64,000 bases of DNA, taken from contig JAOAJN010000002.1 in NCBI GenBank assembly GCA_026414165.1, positions 97,830-161,829 on the forward strand, read 5' to 3'. Each line of letters opens with the position of its first letter. Position 1 is the first letter of the stretch. Positions 10,004 through 19,527 of the stretch are shown in pieces. Source of the DNA: Candidatus Methanomethylicaceae archaeon. Lineage in GTDB: Archaea; Thermoproteota; Methanomethylicia; Methanomethylicales; Methanomethylicaceae. The translations under genes and the position numbers were made by a program. Below the pieces are notes generated by a model. It worked only from the letters and a program-made list of their open reading frames with translations. It was not told where the DNA came from and made no database searches.

Positions 10004-10933
10004 TTATTCGATGCCTAGCTGCTTGCAAGCAGCATCCACTTGTTCCTGTATATATCTGTAGTCGATTTCTCTTAGGTGTGCAAATCTGCCTTGAAGTTTC
10101 AAGTATTCGGATACGGGCTTTCTCTTAGGCGGCTTGTAGGACAGTTTAAACTGCCCGTCCTCTATCTCGTAAAGCGCCCACATTCCCGTATCTACCGCAA
10201 GTCGACCAACTCTCACTAGCAGCTCTGGCGAGAACTTCCAACCCTTGGGGCATGGCGTGTGTATTTGGACGTATGCAGGTCCTTTGACGGCTAGACCTTT
10301 CCTTATCTTAGTCATCAAGTCGAATGGGAACGAAGTGCTAGCTGTTGCAATGTATCGCACATTGGGGTGACCGGCCGCGATCATCTTCGGCAGGTCCTTC
10401 TTCACCCTGACGTTTCCAAGCCTCAGCATCTTGCCTGGAGGAGTGAATGTCGTCCATGCACCCCATGGGGTGAGGCTTGACGCTTGGATACCGGTGTTGG
10501 CATAGGATTCGTTGTCATAGGTCACTATCAGGTGGTCATGTCCAGAGAGCATTGCGCCAGAAATCGCTGCAAGACCGATGTCGGCAGCACCACCGTCACC
10601 TGCCAGACCAATTACGTGGATCTCTTCTTTCTTAATCTTGCCCTTGCGCATCATTGCTTTGTAGGCTGCGGCTGCCCCGCATACTGCAGAACCGATTCCT
10701 CCCAGCTGGGCATGCATCCATGGTATTGCCCACGGTGTTGTATTGTAGCTGCAGTTGGCAACGTACATGCATCCTGTTGCTGTTATACAGATTGCCCTTG
10801 GACCAGCAGCTTTGGCCAAAAATTTACATGCAAGAGCCGGACCGCATCCTTGACAGGTTCTGTGTCCTGCTACATAGTATTCCTCTTTCGGAGTGTCCTT
10901 GAGCGTCCTTATTTCTAATTTCTCCCAACTCAT
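10004..10933 (-). CDS. porB: Pyruvate:ferredoxin oxidoreductase, beta subunit
   Basis: 'GHRTCQGCGPALACKFLAKAAG', TPP motif 'GDGGAADIGLAA...YDNESYANTGIQ'. Confidence 0.93.
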   Translation of the reverse strand: MSWEKLEIRTLKDTPKEEYYVAGHRTCQGCGPALACKFLAKAAGPRAICITATGCMYVANCSYNTTPWAIPWMHAQLGGIGSAVCGAAAAYKAMMRKGKIKKEEIHVIGLAGDGGAADIGLAAISGAMLSGHDHLIVTYDNESYANTGIQASSLTPWGAWTTFTPPGKMLRLGNVRVKKDLPKMIAAGHPNVRYIATASTSFPFDLMTKIRKGLAVKGPAYVQIHTPCPKGWKFSPELLVRVGRLAVDTGMWALYEIEDGQFKLSYKPPKRKPVSEYLKLQGRFAHLREIDYRYIQEQVDAACKQLGIE

Positions 10934-10937
10934 ATTC

Positions 10938-12128
10938 TCACTCCCTTAATCCCACCCATTGTACCGTCTCTTTGACCACACCAGTCTCAGCAATCTCTTT
11001 CACTTGTTTGCAGATCGATCTCATGGCATTCACTGTGATCTCCCTACCTCCAAGACCTATCAGGTAGTTAACTACCTTTGGCCTCTCGGGCACATCATAT
11101 AGTGCGGAGCGAACTTCTTGGAAGATTATTCCGCCATAGTTTGCAGCCCCGAAGGAGAAGTCGTTGTCTAGCACGGCGACCACTTTGAACTTTCTTAGAG
11201 CATTTACTACATCTTCGGTTGCAAATGGTCTAAATCTCCTAAGTTTCACGTATCCAACATTTATTCCCTCTTTTTTAAGTTGCCAGATGGCTGCCTTTGC
11301 GGGCATTGCCATACCCCCCATCCCTATAAGGGCTACATCGGCGTCTTCTGTATTTATTTCCTCAACGAATGGCGGTCCTCCTCTTCCAAAGACTTTATAG
11401 AACTCCTCATGAACTTTTCTTGTCACTTCGATAGCATTTCGCATGCCTTGGTCCATTTGTCTTCTAATCTCAGCACCCCAATAGTAGTCAACATGTGGAG
11501 CTATTGAGAGAGGTTTGTCAGGGTGTAGCACATTTATCCTTGGTGGCGGTGTGGGCGGTAAGAACTCCCTTGCAACCTCTGTCTCAGGCAGATCCACTGG
11601 AAATCTAACATGGGTTATAAAGTTTCCGTCGCAGCATACAACATATGGTAGGAGAACGCTTGGATCTTCTGCAATCTTGTATCCCATAAGGGTCATATCA
11701 TAAGCTTCTTGCGGGTTTTCCGGCCAGCACATCATCCACCCTGTATCTCTCGTAATAAGTGCTTCAGTGTGTTCCACTCCAAAGTTTCCTGGATCGTCTA
11801 GGGCACGGTTTCCTACCATTGCCACCACAGGTGCCCTGTCAGCAGGCGTTACTACCAGCGCCTCATGTGCAAATGCCCAACCAATTCCTGCGCTACCTGT
11901 GAATACTCTCGCTCCGCAAGCTGCTGCATGCTTTGCTATCTCGAATTGTGTATGCTCTGAGTCGGCAACTATGTATTCTGCATCGAACTCTCCATCTGCG
12001 ATCATCTTTGCCAACGAGTTCATTACTCCAGTGTAGGGTCTAATCGGGTATGCTGATATCACATCTACATCTGCATGTTTTACTGCTGTTGCAATAGCTG
12101 TGGTTCCAGTTGTTATCATTTTCACCAT
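10938..12128 (-). CDS. porA: Pyruvate:ferredoxin oxidoreductase, alpha subunit
   Basis: 'AYPIRPYTGVMNSLAKMIADGEFDAEYIVADSEH'; clustered with porB/porD/porC. Confidence 0.93.
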   Translation of the reverse strand: MVKMITTGTTAIATAVKHADVDVISAYPIRPYTGVMNSLAKMIADGEFDAEYIVADSEHTQFEIAKHAAACGARVFTGSAGIGWAFAHEALVVTPADRAPVVAMVGNRALDDPGNFGVEHTEALITRDTGWMMCWPENPQEAYDMTLMGYKIAEDPSVLLPYVVCCDGNFITHVRFPVDLPETEVAREFLPPTPPPRINVLHPDKPLSIAPHVDYYWGAEIRRQMDQGMRNAIEVTRKVHEEFYKVFGRGGPPFVEEINTEDADVALIGMGGMAMPAKAAIWQLKKEGINVGYVKLRRFRPFATEDVVNALRKFKVVAVLDNDFSFGAANYGGIIFQEVRSALYDVPERPKVVNYLIGLGGREITVNAMRSICKQVKEIAETGVVKETVQWVGLRE

Positions 12129-12134
12129 TTTCTC

Positions 12135-12455
12135 TCACTCCTTAAAATCTAATTCGTTTTTCATTTCAATAGCTTTTGTTGGACAGACTTCAGCGCAGAC
12201 CCCACAGCCCTTGCAATAGTCTAAGATTACAGCAAAGAGTGTTTCTGGATCTGGACTTCTAGCGGGCTCTGGGCAGTATAGCCAGCATAGACCGTCCTTA
12301 TTACATTTATTAGGGTCGGTTACTGGTCTTAATGTTCTAAAGGTCGCAGTCTTATAGTGAGGGTTTGGACCGTTCACGGGAGGTGCAAAGACTACTATTC
12401 CTACAGGCATTTCCTTCCAACTTGGAAACTCTTCAAATTTCTTTGTCATTTTCAT
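12135..12455 (-). CDS. porD: Pyruvate:ferredoxin oxidoreductase, delta (ferredoxin) subunit
   Basis: Ferredoxin motif 'CKGCGVCAEVCPTKAIEM'; second cluster altered ('CNKDGLCWLYCPEPAR'). Confidence 0.9.
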   Translation of the reverse strand: MKMTKKFEEFPSWKEMPVGIVVFAPPVNGPNPHYKTATFRTLRPVTDPNKCNKDGLCWLYCPEPARSPDPETLFAVILDYCKGCGVCAEVCPTKAIEMKNELDFKE

Positions 12456-13156
12456 ACCTCCTTTGCTTTGGCGATCTTATATGCCTCCCTCAATACTTCA
12501 GCCTTCTTCATGCCCTCAGCAATGTACCTTTCTTTAACCGCTGCAACCATCGCACGATATGAAACTATGCCAGGCGCGACCTTTAACATGGCACCTAATA
12601 GAGGAACAATTATGATTTTGTCCATCCCGCTAGCGTCTATTGTAACCAATTTGTATTTCTTATTCGTTGGCTGAATGAAATTCAATAGTTCATCCGGACT
12701 TCTCTTACTGTTAACGATTATGGCGCCACCGTCCTTAAGCTTTTCATGGATTGGCTGTAGCCCTATGTGTGCCCAAGGCTCCCCTCCTTTTACAAGGGTA
12801 TCGTCTAAAACTAATACAGCGTTAACTTCTGCTGGTTCGTATAACATTGCCTCTGGGGCCAATTCATCGTAGCACATTTTGTAGTATGTCATATCACATA
12901 CAGGTGCCCCTAGTTGGCTAAGTTCCGCCTCAACATCATCTGCATCTGCCCAGAACTGTTGTTCTGAAGGTTTCGAGACTATTGCAAAGCCTTTAATTGG
13001 TATTCCAACTCTGTCGGGCGCATCGTCATACCTTTCGTATCCCAAAGAAGGGTTGCCATCTTTATCAGCTGCGTTGCAGATAATCTCAGCAGCAGCTCTT
13101 AGTAGAGCGGTCTGCGTAACCCCTCTTCCATCAAATTCTACTGCATATAATACCAT
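12452..13156 (-). CDS. porC: Pyruvate:ferredoxin oxidoreductase, gamma subunit
   Basis: 'EFDGRGVTQTALLRAAAEIICNA', 'GIPIKGFAIVS'; overlaps porD. Confidence 0.88.
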   Translation of the reverse strand: MVLYAVEFDGRGVTQTALLRAAAEIICNAADKDGNPSLGYERYDDAPDRVGIPIKGFAIVSKPSEQQFWADADDVEAELSQLGAPVCDMTYYKMCYDELAPEAMLYEPAEVNAVLVLDDTLVKGGEPWAHIGLQPIHEKLKDGGAIIVNSKRSPDELLNFIQPTNKKYKLVTIDASGMDKIIIVPLLGAMLKVAPGIVSYRAMVAAVKERYIAEGMKKAEVLREAYKIAKAKEV

Positions 13157-13167
13157 TTTTTATCACC

Positions 13168-13455
13168 TCATGGTGGCGGTTCATATTTTTCTTCGATTAC
13201 TTGCTTTGTCCAAGCAACTCTTGCAACAGCACCGTCATCAACCTCCAGCCTCTCTGCCACTGCCTTACCGATCAAAGCAGTTCCTACAGCAACACTTGAA
13301 TCTGCCTTTGCCTTTACAGTCCAAGCTCTTGAGGGTGTGTATAGCTCTACGAGTTCGCCAGCTTTTGCACCTATGTAGCTTAGGTCGGTCGGATTAAAAA
13401 CGCCCTCGTCGCCAGCAATGTTTACCACTTTTAAAGACACTTCTTTATCGGGCAT
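13168..13455 (-). CDS. Small protein of unknown function heading the por operon
   Basis: 95 aa beta-rich sequence 11 nt upstream of porC, same strand. Confidence 0.7.
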   Translation of the reverse strand: MPDKEVSLKVVNIAGDEGVFNPTDLSYIGAKAGELVELYTPSRAWTVKAKADSSVAVGTALIGKAVAERLEVDDGAVARVAWTKQVIEEKYEPPP

Positions 13456-13663: not shown

Positions 13664-13762
13664 TTACTCTCCAGGAGGTGCTATGACTTCAGAGTGCTCT
13701 TTTTTTAGTCTCTTGTCGGTTCTTTCTTTTCTCTTGAATGATGGTAGAACAATTTCACTCAT
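13664..13762 (-). CDS. Candidate Pup/UBact-like small protein modifier, 32 aa (MSEIVLPSFKRKERTDKRLKKEHSEVIAPPGE)
   Basis: Translated directly; not in the supplied ORF track. ATG, TAA stop, SD AGGTGATG 4 nt upstream, 6 nt after the stop of a PafA/Dop homolog; highly charged; ends Gly-Glu. Confidence 0.75.
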   Translation of the reverse strand: MSEIVLPSFKRKERTDKRLKKEHSEVIAPPGE

Positions 13763-13766
13763 GCAA

Positions 13767-13774
13767 CATCACCT
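13767..13774 (-). promoter_or_regulatory. Shine-Dalgarno for the 32-aa ORF, overlapping the stop codon of the upstream PafA/Dop homolog
   Basis: Minus-strand AGGTGATG followed by TTGC then ATG. Confidence 0.7.
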
Positions 13775-15367
13775 CACCATTAGCTCAGAAATCTCCTTTA
13801 GGGTATTCGAATTTAAAAGCGCCTCTGCCTCTTCCTTTCCGTATCTCAGCGGTTCTGGTAGTTGAATTATTCCTCCCTTAAAGTAGATCTTCCACCAGTT
13901 CATTTTAATAATCTCTGAAGAGAACTTCTTCAAAATGCCGGTCCTCAAATATTCCCTAGTATCGCTCGGGGAGTTCGTTAAACCTTTCTTTACTAATTCC
14001 TTAAGTGAAGTATCCAATGAAAACACCGTAGCTAGGTAAGAGGCTGAGGAAGCTGGATCGAATAGAGAGTCTGCTTCTTCTGTCTTATCACCCACATAGA
14101 AACCAGTAGACTCGTCTAATAGACTGTATTGGTTACAAAGCGTTACTGCCTCTTCATCCTTTACACCATACTCCTCTATGAGTTGCATTTTTGCTATCCA
14201 GTCCAGCCCTTCACCAATATCCTCAAATCGCCCTTCTATTAATTTTTGAGTCAAAAACTCTATAATCTTCAACACCTTATGATCTTCAGCATCACCTGAA
14301 CTTTCTATTAATCGCTCAGCAGCGTCTATGTAATATGCAAATATATCTGAAAGTACCCGTGCCCTTCCCCCATTTTTCAAATCTAACGTCTGATCTACAT
14401 TTTCTGTTTCCGATGCAACTTTTCTTACGGATTCAATTGGGTCTTTTATAGAAGGAGGAGCGGTCAGAAGACCCTCTTCAGCAGCTTTCAAAACAAAGAC
14501 TTCGAGAGCGTCTCTAATGAATATCTGAAAGTCACTTCGTATAGCTTCAAAATTTATGTCGTGTAGCCTCCAATATTTTTCCGGATCGGCATGCGGCTCG
14601 TCACGTTGGTTCAGAAATCCTCTCTCAACTGTAGTGTCTATCGAAGAAGGCTGCTTTATGAATATCGACCTTGGTGAGACTACATATACAAGGCGATCTC
14701 CGCGAAGTCTTGAACTGGTCGGCGGGTCAAATATATATGTATCTCTTATTGGCAAAATACCGCCTCCGCTAATCACAGGTATCCTGCTTATGATGAATGG
14801 GATTAACATCTCTTCTACTGAATTCCATCGGTCAAAGTTGAATACATTTCTTTTTAAACAATAATTCCCGTGGGTACCCCAAGCTACAGATTCGTATCCG
14901 AGTGATCCTTTAAGAAGGCTAGTATTACTCTTATAGCAGTAAATATTTCCAAGCTTATCCCTTAAATATTTGATCCCCAAAAATGCTAACCTCTCTGCGA
15001 CTTTATCGTATATAACCGCGTCTATTGGGTTTCTAAAAACTGGGGTTGAGAGCTCTAGATGTTCTGCATCATCATAGATGCGCATTCCATTGAGCGCAAC
15101 TTCGTATGGACCTTGATAAAATAGCCAAGAATCTAAAAGGCCCCTTTCATAGGTCAAATTGCCTACTTCATCCTCCACGCTCCAGTTTACTTCTGTTACA
15201 AAGCCTAGGCTTTTAATTGAATTCATAGTTCTTCCTATGAGGTCTGAGAGCTGTATCCCAGGAAGTATTGGGGGGTATTTGTTTACACTGAATTCATATT
15301 CTATCCCTCTAGCCATCTCTCTCAAGATCTTCATAAAATTCACTCTGTATTTTTTTATCACCCTCAA
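13769..15367 (-). CDS. PafA/Dop family protein (Pup ligase/depupylase homolog), copy A
   Basis: 'ARGIEYEFS' (GIExEfg), 'LNGMRIYDDAEHLELSTPVFRNPIDAVIYDKVAER', 'YESVAWGTHGNYCLKR', 'FLNQRDEPHADPEKYWRLHDI', C-terminal 'GLDWIAKMQLIEEY' and 'NWWKIYFKG' match PafA/Dop landmarks in order. Start may be 15334. Confidence 0.88.
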   Translation of the reverse strand: MRVIKKYRVNFMKILREMARGIEYEFSVNKYPPILPGIQLSDLIGRTMNSIKSLGFVTEVNWSVEDEVGNLTYERGLLDSWLFYQGPYEVALNGMRIYDDAEHLELSTPVFRNPIDAVIYDKVAERLAFLGIKYLRDKLGNIYCYKSNTSLLKGSLGYESVAWGTHGNYCLKRNVFNFDRWNSVEEMLIPFIISRIPVISGGGILPIRDTYIFDPPTSSRLRGDRLVYVVSPRSIFIKQPSSIDTTVERGFLNQRDEPHADPEKYWRLHDINFEAIRSDFQIFIRDALEVFVLKAAEEGLLTAPPSIKDPIESVRKVASETENVDQTLDLKNGGRARVLSDIFAYYIDAAERLIESSGDAEDHKVLKIIEFLTQKLIEGRFEDIGEGLDWIAKMQLIEEYGVKDEEAVTLCNQYSLLDESTGFYVGDKTEEADSLFDPASSASYLATVFSLDTSLKELVKKGLTNSPSDTREYLRTGILKKFSSEIIKMNWWKIYFKGGIIQLPEPLRYGKEEAEALLNSNTLKEISELMVR

Positions 15368-15455
15368 ATATAAAACGGTTTTGTCATAAATAAGAGTGTA
15401 ATTCGTTATTCTTCCAATTGGTTAAAATGGAATAAAATACTATACTGTCAAAAGG

Positions 15456-16868
15456 TTACTTCGTAATTTTTGGTGCTCCTTTAATCATCTCTATAAAATC
15501 AGCAATCCGCTCTTCATCCCACCCATTTAAATCTAGCATTGGATGAACCATTCCATTTACTACAATATTCGCCCATCCAATGTCATCCAACCACTGACTT
15601 AGTTGTTTTGCAATTTTAACCCTTGCAAACCCTCTTGAACCTTTGGGAGGGAAGAGCACAGCCCTCGAGAGATCTTCATCACTAATTAGAGCAACTAGTG
15701 CTAATTCTTCTTGAATGCGCTCATAAGTAGCGTCGGTAACTGCGGTAAACTGGTTATTAGCAACTACTTTCTTTTCCTCCACAGAATCTTCACTTTCAAA
15801 GTATTTTTCAAAATTTTTCTCAATAATCTCTAGTTTTGTTATCCACTCAACTCTCTCTTTTAGAGATTGAAAATTCCCCTCTTCTAGCTTTTTCAAGGCA
15901 TACTTGAACTCTTGGATGGCATACTTGTCCCAATCATTAACCTCTTCTATCGAAAACAACTTTTCTATTCCTTCAAGATAGTATGACAAAAGATCAAAAA
16001 CAGTAACCTCTTTGTCTCCCTCCGTTTGTATTTCCCAATCACCCTCCGGTGATATTGCAATAAGCTTTGTAGCCTCAACAGGATCTTTAACCTTAGGCAC
16101 GTTTTTTATCAATCCTCGCTCAATGCCCCTAATGATGTAGGAGGTTATTGCCTGTCTCATGAAAGTAGTCCACTCAGATCTTGCACCCTCACCATTCGTA
16201 ATCTGTACCCTCCTAAATTTCGGATCCGTATGGGGTTCATCTACACCTCCTATTAATGGCCATGATCCAAAAACTTTATCAGCAAACACACTTTTTACAA
16301 ACATCTGTCTTGGAGAGATCATGAACTTTCCAAAATAATACCCTCCCACCCCTGTGAAGACTTGCCTAACAACTAAGTAAGGGATAAGTTCCTTGATGCC
16401 TTCTGAGAATCCTGCCCTGTCTACCAAATAAGACTCATGTAAGCCACGGGTTGTATATTCGTGTTCTGAACGAGTTGCACTAATCTTATAGCAATGAACT
16501 CTGAGGCCACTCTCTCTTTCGTATTCTTCGGAGGCAATTCTTGCATAAATCTCTGTCGCCTTTTCGTAGGTTAGAGTGGTAAACGGATCAGGACATTCGG
16601 GCGTGGTTATCTCGAGAACGTCATATACTCCAGGAGTGGCACTCATATCACCATATGCTCTTCCACCATTAATTAAAAATTGTGTAGACTCACAACCTCT
16701 TTTTATCAGAAATGGAGGGTCCCCTTTAGGAGGCATTTTGTATCTTCTGAGCGCCTCTAATAGTTCGTTAACATATGCCTTTCCATGAATGTATGGTATG
16801 CAATACTCCACTTCAACGCCCTGCCACATCTTCAAAAAAAACACCGGTATTGATTGTAGTTTAATCAA
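15456..16868 (-). CDS. PafA/Dop family protein (Pup ligase/depupylase homolog), copy B
   Basis: 'GVEVEYCIP', 'INGGRAYGDMS...YDVLEITTPECPDPFTTLTYEKATE', 'EYTTRGLHESYLVDRAGFSEGIKELIPYLVVRQVFTGVGGY', 'PLIGGVDEPHTDPKFRRVQI', 'RVEWITKLEIIEKNF'; paralog of copy A. Confidence 0.88.
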   Translation of the reverse strand: MIKLQSIPVFFLKMWQGVEVEYCIPYIHGKAYVNELLEALRRYKMPPKGDPPFLIKRGCESTQFLINGGRAYGDMSATPGVYDVLEITTPECPDPFTTLTYEKATEIYARIASEEYERESGLRVHCYKISATRSEHEYTTRGLHESYLVDRAGFSEGIKELIPYLVVRQVFTGVGGYYFGKFMISPRQMFVKSVFADKVFGSWPLIGGVDEPHTDPKFRRVQITNGEGARSEWTTFMRQAITSYIIRGIERGLIKNVPKVKDPVEATKLIAISPEGDWEIQTEGDKEVTVFDLLSYYLEGIEKLFSIEEVNDWDKYAIQEFKYALKKLEEGNFQSLKERVEWITKLEIIEKNFEKYFESEDSVEEKKVVANNQFTAVTDATYERIQEELALVALISDEDLSRAVLFPPKGSRGFARVKIAKQLSQWLDDIGWANIVVNGMVHPMLDLNGWDEERIADFIEMIKGAPKITK

Positions 16869-18069: not shown

Positions 18070-19527
18070 TTATCCAGTAGGTATGGCGCCCACCACAAAT
18101 GTGCAATAGAACAGAGACACCAAGTAGAATGCGGCGCCGCCTGCTATTACAATTGTTGAAAGCCAAGACATCCTGCAACGCTTCGGCAACATCTTATTAT
18201 TAACATATAGCAGCAGCAGGCAATAGCTACCCATAATGAGTGGTGATAGGAATGCTAGCAAGTCCAACATGAATGCGGGCCCTCTTGCCGCACCGCTTAC
18301 AGTGGTTATTATGCCAATTATAGTAACAGTTGCCACCCAGATGTAGTACCACTTCCTCATGCCTAGCTTCTGTGCTCCTTTGAATAGCTGGAAAGTCATA
18401 TCTGCCTGTCCTCTTGCGAAGGCATCAAATATGCCAAAGCTCATCTTCCAGCCAACTAAGAACATTACAATGAACCACAGTGGATAGAGAACGGGCGATA
18501 TGTATGTGAACGCGGAGGCAATGGCATCTATAGCTCTCAAAGTCGCCCCTGCCCTAATTGCTGATAAAGCAGCAGGACTCAGTTCCGCAGCCCTCATGCT
18601 TAATACGGTGAAGAAGAGTGTTGTAAAGTAAGTTATGAGTCCGAAGCTGATTAATGCATCATATATATTCAGTTTCCTCCAACGTTTCCATTTGTCCATC
18701 TCTTCGTCCAAGTTGACATCGAAGTAGAAGCCGCTATCTCGCCATTTATCCTCTTTTCCAAAGATTAGTCCAGTAATCTTGGGCATATATCCAGACATAC
18801 CTGCGCCCTCTTCTCTTGCCCAAAGTGTGTACCACATCTGCTGCATTCCTGAAGGACCCATAAATGCAAGCGCACCAACGAGTAGCGGCAGCCAGGTCTT
18901 CGTACTCATCATATCGGTCCAGTAACCGAATGCGACGGTTCCGTAAAGTGCTTGTCCCCAATGCTCAGGTTTTCCCACTAATACGGCAACGCCAAATGAT
19001 ACGGCAATCATCATTGAGATGGCAATTAACAACAGGAATTTGACTGTCTTATAGACTTGATAGGGGCTCAGAATCAATATCGCTGCTATAACACAAAGAC
19101 TTATAACTGCGATCATTACCCAGTCTACCTTTAATAGCATTCCAAGGGCGCCTGAGCCTGTAACGACATGTCCAGGCCATATATAAACTAATATGGCCAC
19201 AATATAGAAGTACCACATTACTATTGGATGGATTCTTTTTCCTGCAGTGAATATGCTCTCGCCAGAGAAATAGGTCCACCGAGCGATCTCCATAGTGACG
19301 AAGATCTGGATGACTAGACCAACTGTTGCTAGCCATCGTACTTCTGGACCAAAAACAATAACTAGCCTAGGCCACATGAAAGTCTCGCCCATTCCAACGC
19401 CAAGGGCTGCTAATATTAGACCAGGACCAAGTATTTTGCGTATGCTAACCGGACCGGGGTCGTTGAGAACTCGCAGCTCCAATGGGGGGCCTCTTCCTAC
19501 CCTAAGCTCCTTTATTTCCTGTCCCAT
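18070..19527 (-). CDS. Nramp-like divalent metal transporter homolog (divergent)
   Basis: 'KILGPGLILAALGVGMGETFMWPRLV' N-terminal TM1-like signature; approx. 11 TMs; long hydrophilic loop in the middle. Confidence 0.65.
   Translation of the reverse strand: MGQEIKELRVGRGPPLELRVLNDPGPVSIRKILGPGLILAALGVGMGETFMWPRLVIVFGPEVRWLATVGLVIQIFVTMEIARWTYFSGESIFTAGKRIHPIVMWYFYIVAILVYIWPGHVVTGSGALGMLLKVDWVMIAVISLCVIAAILILSPYQVYKTVKFLLLIAISMMIAVSFGVAVLVGKPEHWGQALYGTVAFGYWTDMMSTKTWLPLLVGALAFMGPSGMQQMWYTLWAREEGAGMSGYMPKITGLIFGKEDKWRDSGFYFDVNLDEEMDKWKRWRKLNIYDALISFGLITYFTTLFFTVLSMRAAELSPAALSAIRAGATLRAIDAIASAFTYISPVLYPLWFIVMFLVGWKMSFGIFDAFARGQADMTFQLFKGAQKLGMRKWYYIWVATVTIIGIITTVSGAARGPAFMLDLLAFLSPLIMGSYCLLLLYVNNKMLPKRCRMSWLSTIVIAGGAAFYLVSLFYCTFVVGAIPTG

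Follow-up and report, generated by a model that had tools for sequence, protein, structure and literature searches.

Do archaea tag proteins with a Pup-type system? The pupylation described in the literature that we found is bacterial (Actinobacteria, Nitrospirae and scattered others), with no archaeal case. We addressed this question at a locus in a 64,000-nucleotide stretch of DNA from a Candidatus Methanomethylicaceae archaeon (hereafter the window), in which two neighboring genes, paralogs A and B, encode proteins of the family that contains the Pup ligase PafA and the Pup-removing enzyme Dop. The original prediction, which centered on B, took it for a strongly diverged copy of A and proposed that the two are functionally distinct enzymes. 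It did not mention the small gene that follows A, which turned out to argue most strongly for a conjugation system. The features of the locus are as follows.

15456..16835, minus strand: paralog B, a diverged Pup_ligase-family protein of 459 aa from TTG 16835, or 457 aa from ATG 16829; proposed tag ligase
13769..15334, minus strand: paralog A, a Dop-like Pup_ligase-family protein of 521 aa; proposed tag-removing enzyme
13664..13762, minus strand: Pup-like tag candidate of 32 aa, MSEIVLPSFKRKERTDKRLKKEHSEVIAPPGE, put forward for its conservation and its co-distribution with A and B
13769..13775, minus strand: Shine-Dalgarno sequence GAGGTGA of the tag gene, which includes the TGA stop of A
15366..15375, minus strand: TATA-like element TTTTATATTT, 31 nt upstream of the ATG of A, named for its resemblance to the consensus only

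On the minus strand the genes run in the order B, A, tag. The reading frame of B as listed, 15456-16868 (minus strand, 470 aa), has an over-extended start: its relatives begin TTG-AAA-ATT-TGG, corresponding here to TTG 16835, which is probably the true start and would give 459 aa. For A the conserved start is ATG 15334, and a longer TTG start at 15367 sits within the TATA-like element. The 88-nt gap between the genes that was reported originally had been counted from this upstream TTG; from the conserved ATG it is 121 nt, and among relatives it ranges from 46 to 288 nt. The gap had also been read as a hint that B may have a promoter of its own. It lies downstream of B, however, and the TATA-like element would serve A. 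T-rich, TTTATA-type elements occur ~20–50 nt upstream of the ATG of A in all seven genomes compared, and the one in the window is a possible promoter for A itself. In one genome (G027), a 367-aa ORF (L020 11507-12610, plus strand) adjoins A at the place expected for B, which lies on a separate contig.

Both proteins belong to the family as predicted, matching the Pfam model PF03136 (Pup_ligase, cut-off 25 bits) with E-values of 5.1e-51 for B (174.5 bits) and 1e-52 for A (180.1 bits), and both also match Dop and PafA chains of the PDB by sequence. The motifs on which the assignment of B had been based (GVEVEYCIP, LEITTPEC, TTRGLHESYLVDR and GGVDEPHTDPKFRRVQI) are all present in the ORF at 15456-16868. 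BLASTP aligned A and B at 25% identity over about 427 columns with an E-value of 5e-32, so the low-identity alignment noted earlier reflects real paralogy rather than chance. Mean column identity is 80–82% inside the A set and inside the B set (the latter being proteins from seven genomes) and 25% between them, in keeping with the proposal of an old duplication of which both copies were kept and diverged. A scored 166.6 bits against the NCBIfam model for Dop (TIGR03688) versus 111.6 bits for PafA (TIGR03686), and B scored nearly level, 131.9 bits for Dop versus 118.2 for PafA; all these scores fall far under the PafA/Dop equivalog cut-offs (492.3 and 551.3). Scanning for relatives with B alone returned none, and scanning with an alignment of A returned six. 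AlphaFold models of A and B built from shallow alignments had pLDDT values of 38 and 37 and were discarded. A scan of viral contigs for bridging sequences found none. One sequence labelled 'Bacteriophage sp.' (MT835496.1; L058, 37874-51079) carries a frame that joins ARC and Dop, together with Pup and PafA, all ordered as in Actinobacteria, and is probably a mislabelled actinobacterial fragment.

A 32-residue peptide encoded after paralog A

The tag ORF begins 6 nt past the stop of A in the window, and its position after A is constant among relatives, with either a gap of a few nucleotides or, in two genomes, a 4-nt overlap of the two genes. It was found in 8/8 genomes that have A or B and in 0/14 other genomes of the family. 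The encoded peptide is 31–32 residues long across relatives, ends in Gly-Glu and carries a net charge of +2. We found no Pfam or NCBIfam match to it up to an E-value of 10, and no match to a Pup with hhalign.

Such a short frame, with no match to a family model, could in principle arise by chance, with the substrate of A and B encoded elsewhere. We consider this barely credible, as the frame recurs at the same place in all eight genomes, each time with a purine-rich, GGTGA-type Shine-Dalgarno sequence upstream of the ATG. Mean column identity is 86% over the whole length, the C-terminal APPGE before the stop is invariant, and an indel is one codon long and in frame. Across all pairs compared, pN was 0.08 and pS 0.76 (pN/pS about 0.1); the tag is under strong purifying selection at the protein level.

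Pups have been recognized as small proteins of 50–90 residues that end in G[EQ] and are encoded adjoining a PafA gene (Pup rule and reported lengths, PMC2588565). The peptide is small, has the G[EQ] end and neighbors a PafA-family gene, but at 31–32 aa it lies below the 50–90 residue range. Of Pup bound to Dop, roughly the last 27 residues are ordered (PMC8599861), so a 32-residue tag, which is close in length to the PafA/Dop-binding portion of Pup, would leave little or no N-terminal tail for threading into Mpa, and any recruitment to the proteasome must therefore differ from that in bacteria.

Taking together family membership, an ATP/Mg and catalytic Asp set that is intact in A and mostly so in B, and a conserved tag gene that directly follows A and is co-distributed with the enzymes, we infer that the peptide is very probably a substrate of A and/or B and that the targets to which it would be joined are likely proteins. 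The locus as a whole would then be a compact, diverged Pup-type protein-conjugation system in an archaeon, a reading that we favor as reasonably probable. Mechanistically, a GS-fold enzyme would bind ATP and Mg and phosphorylate the gamma-carboxylate of the C-terminal Glu of the tag, which would then be joined to a lysine of the target; the sister enzyme would hydrolyze the isopeptide bond between tag and target. Because the tag is encoded with a terminal Glu, no deamidation step would be necessary. Against this reading stand the shortness of the tag and its lack of similarity to Pup, the loss from B of a Thr-Thr-Arg motif and a Mg-ligand His, a tree in which A does not group with Dop nor B with PafA, and the lack of ARC/Mpa in the window's genome.

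The closest parallel is the actinobacterial Pup-proteasome system (Pup, PafA, Dop, ARC/Mpa and the 20S proteasome), which likewise has two Pup_ligase-family paralogs adjoining a small protein that ends in Gly-Glu/Gln, the catalytic Asp and Mg-ligand set, and a 20S-type proteasome in the cell. Actinobacterial Pup, in contrast, has ~64 residues and is acidic, and here the host is an archaeon, no ARC/Mpa was found in the window's genome, the proteasome genes are unlinked, B is without the Thr-Thr-Arg of PafA and Dop, and the split between A and B is not the split between PafA and Dop. SAMP/Urm1 and ubiquitin-like systems, which are also archaeal protein tagging with possible links to the proteasome, use beta-grasp tags and E1-type enzymes. 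The tag here is instead a 32-residue peptide, and the enzymes belong to the GS-fold family (for the SAMP/Urm1 fold, see PMC4569737). UBact and other non-actinobacterial Pup-like systems (Nitrospirae, Verrucomicrobia and others) resemble the locus in having diverged, G[EQ]-ending tags beside PafA-family genes, but their tags are 50–90 residues long and bacterial (PMC2588565); UBact was likened by description only. The ligases of Rhodopirellula and Plesiocystis carry TM inserts (PMC2588565). If our reading is correct, archaea (Methanomethylicota) would have a second, non-ubiquitin tagging chemistry, and the peptide would indicate how small a tag of the Pup type can get.

Active sites of the two paralogs and division of labor

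We compared active sites using the numbering of Acidothermus Dop (PMC8599861) for Dop positions. In its own numbering, A retains E12, E14, Y87, D89, E94, H155, R222, T234, T235, R238 and H258; in Dop numbering, it retains the Glu pair of the GhExE motif, Y92, D94, E99, H155 and R205, and also T217, T218, R221, R227 and H241. All catalytic residues that we checked in A are intact, including the catalytic Asp and six Mg ligands. B (numbered from ATG 16829) retains E6, E8, Y59, D61, E73, H131 and R174, that is, in Dop numbering, the Glu pair, Y92, D94, E99, H155 and R205. It thus keeps GVEVE (as GhExE), the catalytic Asp (D61) and 5/6 Mg ligands. The sixth, a His (Dop H241), is Gln (Q209) in 7/7 B proteins. 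In addition, the Thr-Thr-Arg common to PafA and Dop is replaced in B by [VI]-F-W (T217 to V/I, T218 to F and R221 to W, in Dop numbering). Dop R221 corresponds to PafA R201, an Arg that contacts the Pup tail; every one of the seven B proteins has Trp there.

The two proteins also differ in their loops. The spacing between GhExE and the catalytic Asp is 75 in A and 53 in B, compared to 84 in Dop (in two of the three Dop references where it was measurable) and 46–47 in PafA, pointing to a Dop-loop-like insert that is present in A and missing from B. At the Dop-loop, A has ~30 residues more than PafA, with the matching Trp; in B the Dop-loop is absent and the alpha-loop is neither of the Dop nor of the PafA type. 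We then classified the diagnostic Dop/PafA positions of PMC7947786 ourselves, counting conservative replacements as like: in A, eight are Dop-like and one or two PafA-like; in B, two are Dop-like and two to four PafA-like; the remainder in each are neither. T217 of the alpha-loop was dropped as a mark of Dop because it is present in PafA too. The PafA-like features of B are the spacing of 53, a Phe at PafA position 54 and an extra residue after the catalytic Asp. As a PafA, B would fit in lacking the Dop-loop, but not in its alpha-loop type or at Arg201. As a Dop, A would fit in its insert and its eight Dop-like positions, yet the tree separates it from Dop.

Differences between A and B in Dop-loop, alpha-loop and metal ligands make two activities likely, which upholds the proposal of two distinct enzymes; the likeness to PafA and Dop is not supported as one of simple orthology (AU test, below). 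We lean slightly toward B as the ligase and A as the deconjugase: B has no Dop-loop and an altered tail-binding pocket, and A has a Dop-like loop and active site. Assignment of the opposite roles, with A as the ligase, or an A-B heterodimer in which B is regulatory or degenerate, appears less likely, and would overlap with the Pup-type reading. Such schemes would account for A being catalytically complete while B is without one metal ligand and Thr-Thr-Arg, PafA heterodimers have been proposed (PMC2588565), and the single-copy homologs of Planctomycetes indicate that a Dop-like loop need not mean a depupylase (PMC7947786). On the other hand, B is close to A in its degree of conservation and still has GhExE, its catalytic Asp and most Mg ligands, making a dead subunit unlikely, and Gln in place of the lost His is a listed variant in the family, [QH]x4D (PMC2588565).

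Distribution and history of the A/B pair

PF03136 occurs in 8/40 genomes of the class and in 8/398 genomes drawn from the phylum. All carriers fall in three genera of a single family, and those with names are Candidatus Methanomethylicota (Verstraetearchaeota) MAGs, e.g. WYZ-LMO10 and WYZ-LMO11. In a tree of the proteasome alpha subunit, the three carrier genera make up one side of a branch (support 84/84 for protein, 100/100 for DNA), a pattern for which a single gain, or a single retention, suffices. As the carriers are one clade, the presence of the tag in eight genomes and its absence from 14 count as one event, not eight.

The split between A and B predates the three genera. In an unrooted tree with actinobacterial references, A joins B with support of 100/99, and the arrangement that pairs Dop with A and PafA with B was rejected (AU p 0.0002–0.0003, with thin sampling). 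In 25 simulations under this rejected arrangement, the preference for A with B reached at most 0.8 lnL units, compared to 40.6 observed, indicating that plain long-branch attraction is insufficient to produce it. The tree could still be misled by tag-driven convergence, an unsuitable model or the absence of Nitrospirae and Planctomycetes sequences.

That A and B group together, apart from the actinobacterial PafA and Dop sequences, is also what recent, lineage-specific duplicates sharing one activity would show. We regard that history as very improbable: A and B are only 25% identical, their stems are long (1.6–2.0 changes per column) and their active-site differences are fixed in every genome compared. 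These same observations contradict the outcome, recent duplicates with identical active sites, that had been named as refuting two distinct enzymes.

The single-copy PafA/Dop-like homologs of Planctomycetes, which we compared by description only, are likewise diverged from both PafA and Dop, and differ in being single where the archaeal locus has two genes. They align in part with the Dop-loop (PMC7947786), so the Dop-like features of A may be ancestral and, given also the uncertainty of the tree, function is not readable from it. The A/B pair may have diverged separately from PafA and Dop, which would make it a natural test of what determines ligase versus hydrolase activity. The system is real, conserved and compact, with the layout of a Pup conjugation system, and differs from the standard PafA/Dop pair as well as from a standard Pup.

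Proteasome, unfoldases and neighboring genes

All eight tag-bearing genomes contain 20S-type proteasome-family genes, which lie outside the window and are unlinked to the locus. In the window's genome, which is 86% complete, no ARC/Mpa reached the cut-off; the best match (243.6 bits versus 504.75) was a 725-aa frame with two AAA domains, of the Cdc48 type. PAN was over the cut-off in G011, G012 and G030 and present in pieces in G029. The window's genus, represented by four genomes (G000, G026, G027 and G028; each 80–92% complete), gave no match to PAN, an apparent genus-level loss; PAN is present in the other tag-bearing genera and in most of the family. We rejected a lone 397-aa AAA ATPase as a PAN (181.8 bits to TIGR01242). 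This ATPase, which follows a gene that is ESCRT-III-like by eye, is probably Vps4/CdvC. The ATPases left in the window's genus look Cdc48-type and Vps4/CdvC-type.

A fuller picture, which we offer tentatively and rate as less probable than the Pup-type reading itself, is a minimal archaeal form of Pup-type tagging, with enzymes that split independently of PafA and Dop and a short tag, working with no ARC/Mpa and, in one genus, with no PAN either. Tagging would then be reversible and either non-degradative or followed by Cdc48-type delivery; a non-degradative role or delivery of tagged proteins by Cdc48 is only a guess. The lack of ARC/Mpa, and of PAN in one genus, makes it testable whether Pup-type tags need a dedicated unfoldase.

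The missing unfoldases also bear on a different use of the peptide, as a carrier. In the LysW amino-group carrier, attachment occurs at the terminal Glu, and LysW-type systems employ ATP-grasp ligases. Similarly, B and/or A might attach a small amine or amino acid to the Glu of the tag, with A releasing the product. We consider this unlikely, since the enzymes here are of the PafA/Dop family rather than ATP-grasp ligases, and no metabolite-synthesis gene lies inside the B-A-tag cluster. A carrier would nonetheless suit the conservation of the peptide throughout its length, the altered tail pocket of B, the want of ARC/Mpa in the window's genome and of PAN in its genus, and the production of small-molecule amides by the family's relatives GS and GCS (PMC2588565).

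Downstream of the tag, ~200 nt beyond it and across an interval that begins T-rich in 8/8 genomes, lie oxalate oxidoreductase (OOR)-like genes (10004-13156, minus strand). The alpha and beta subunits scored 404 and 443 bits to OOR models, below the cut-offs of 500 and 590; the alpha subunit contains YPIRP, a motif that has been ascribed to OOR alone (PMC5020499), and strong matches to a gamma/delta-like subunit are confined to the eight tag-bearing genomes. Between the tag and these genes, a 95-aa protein (13168-13455, minus strand), also found only in those eight genomes, has a weak likeness to a molybdopterin-dinucleotide-binding domain (E 0.0006, under the cut-off). On the far side of B, a 485-aa probable membrane protein (18070-19527, minus strand) has no Pfam match, is NRAMP-like by eye and has matches limited to the same three genera. 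Since the OOR-like genes, the 95-aa gene and the membrane protein all mark these three genera, we distrust the co-occurrence of the OOR-like genes with the tag as a sign of a functional link.
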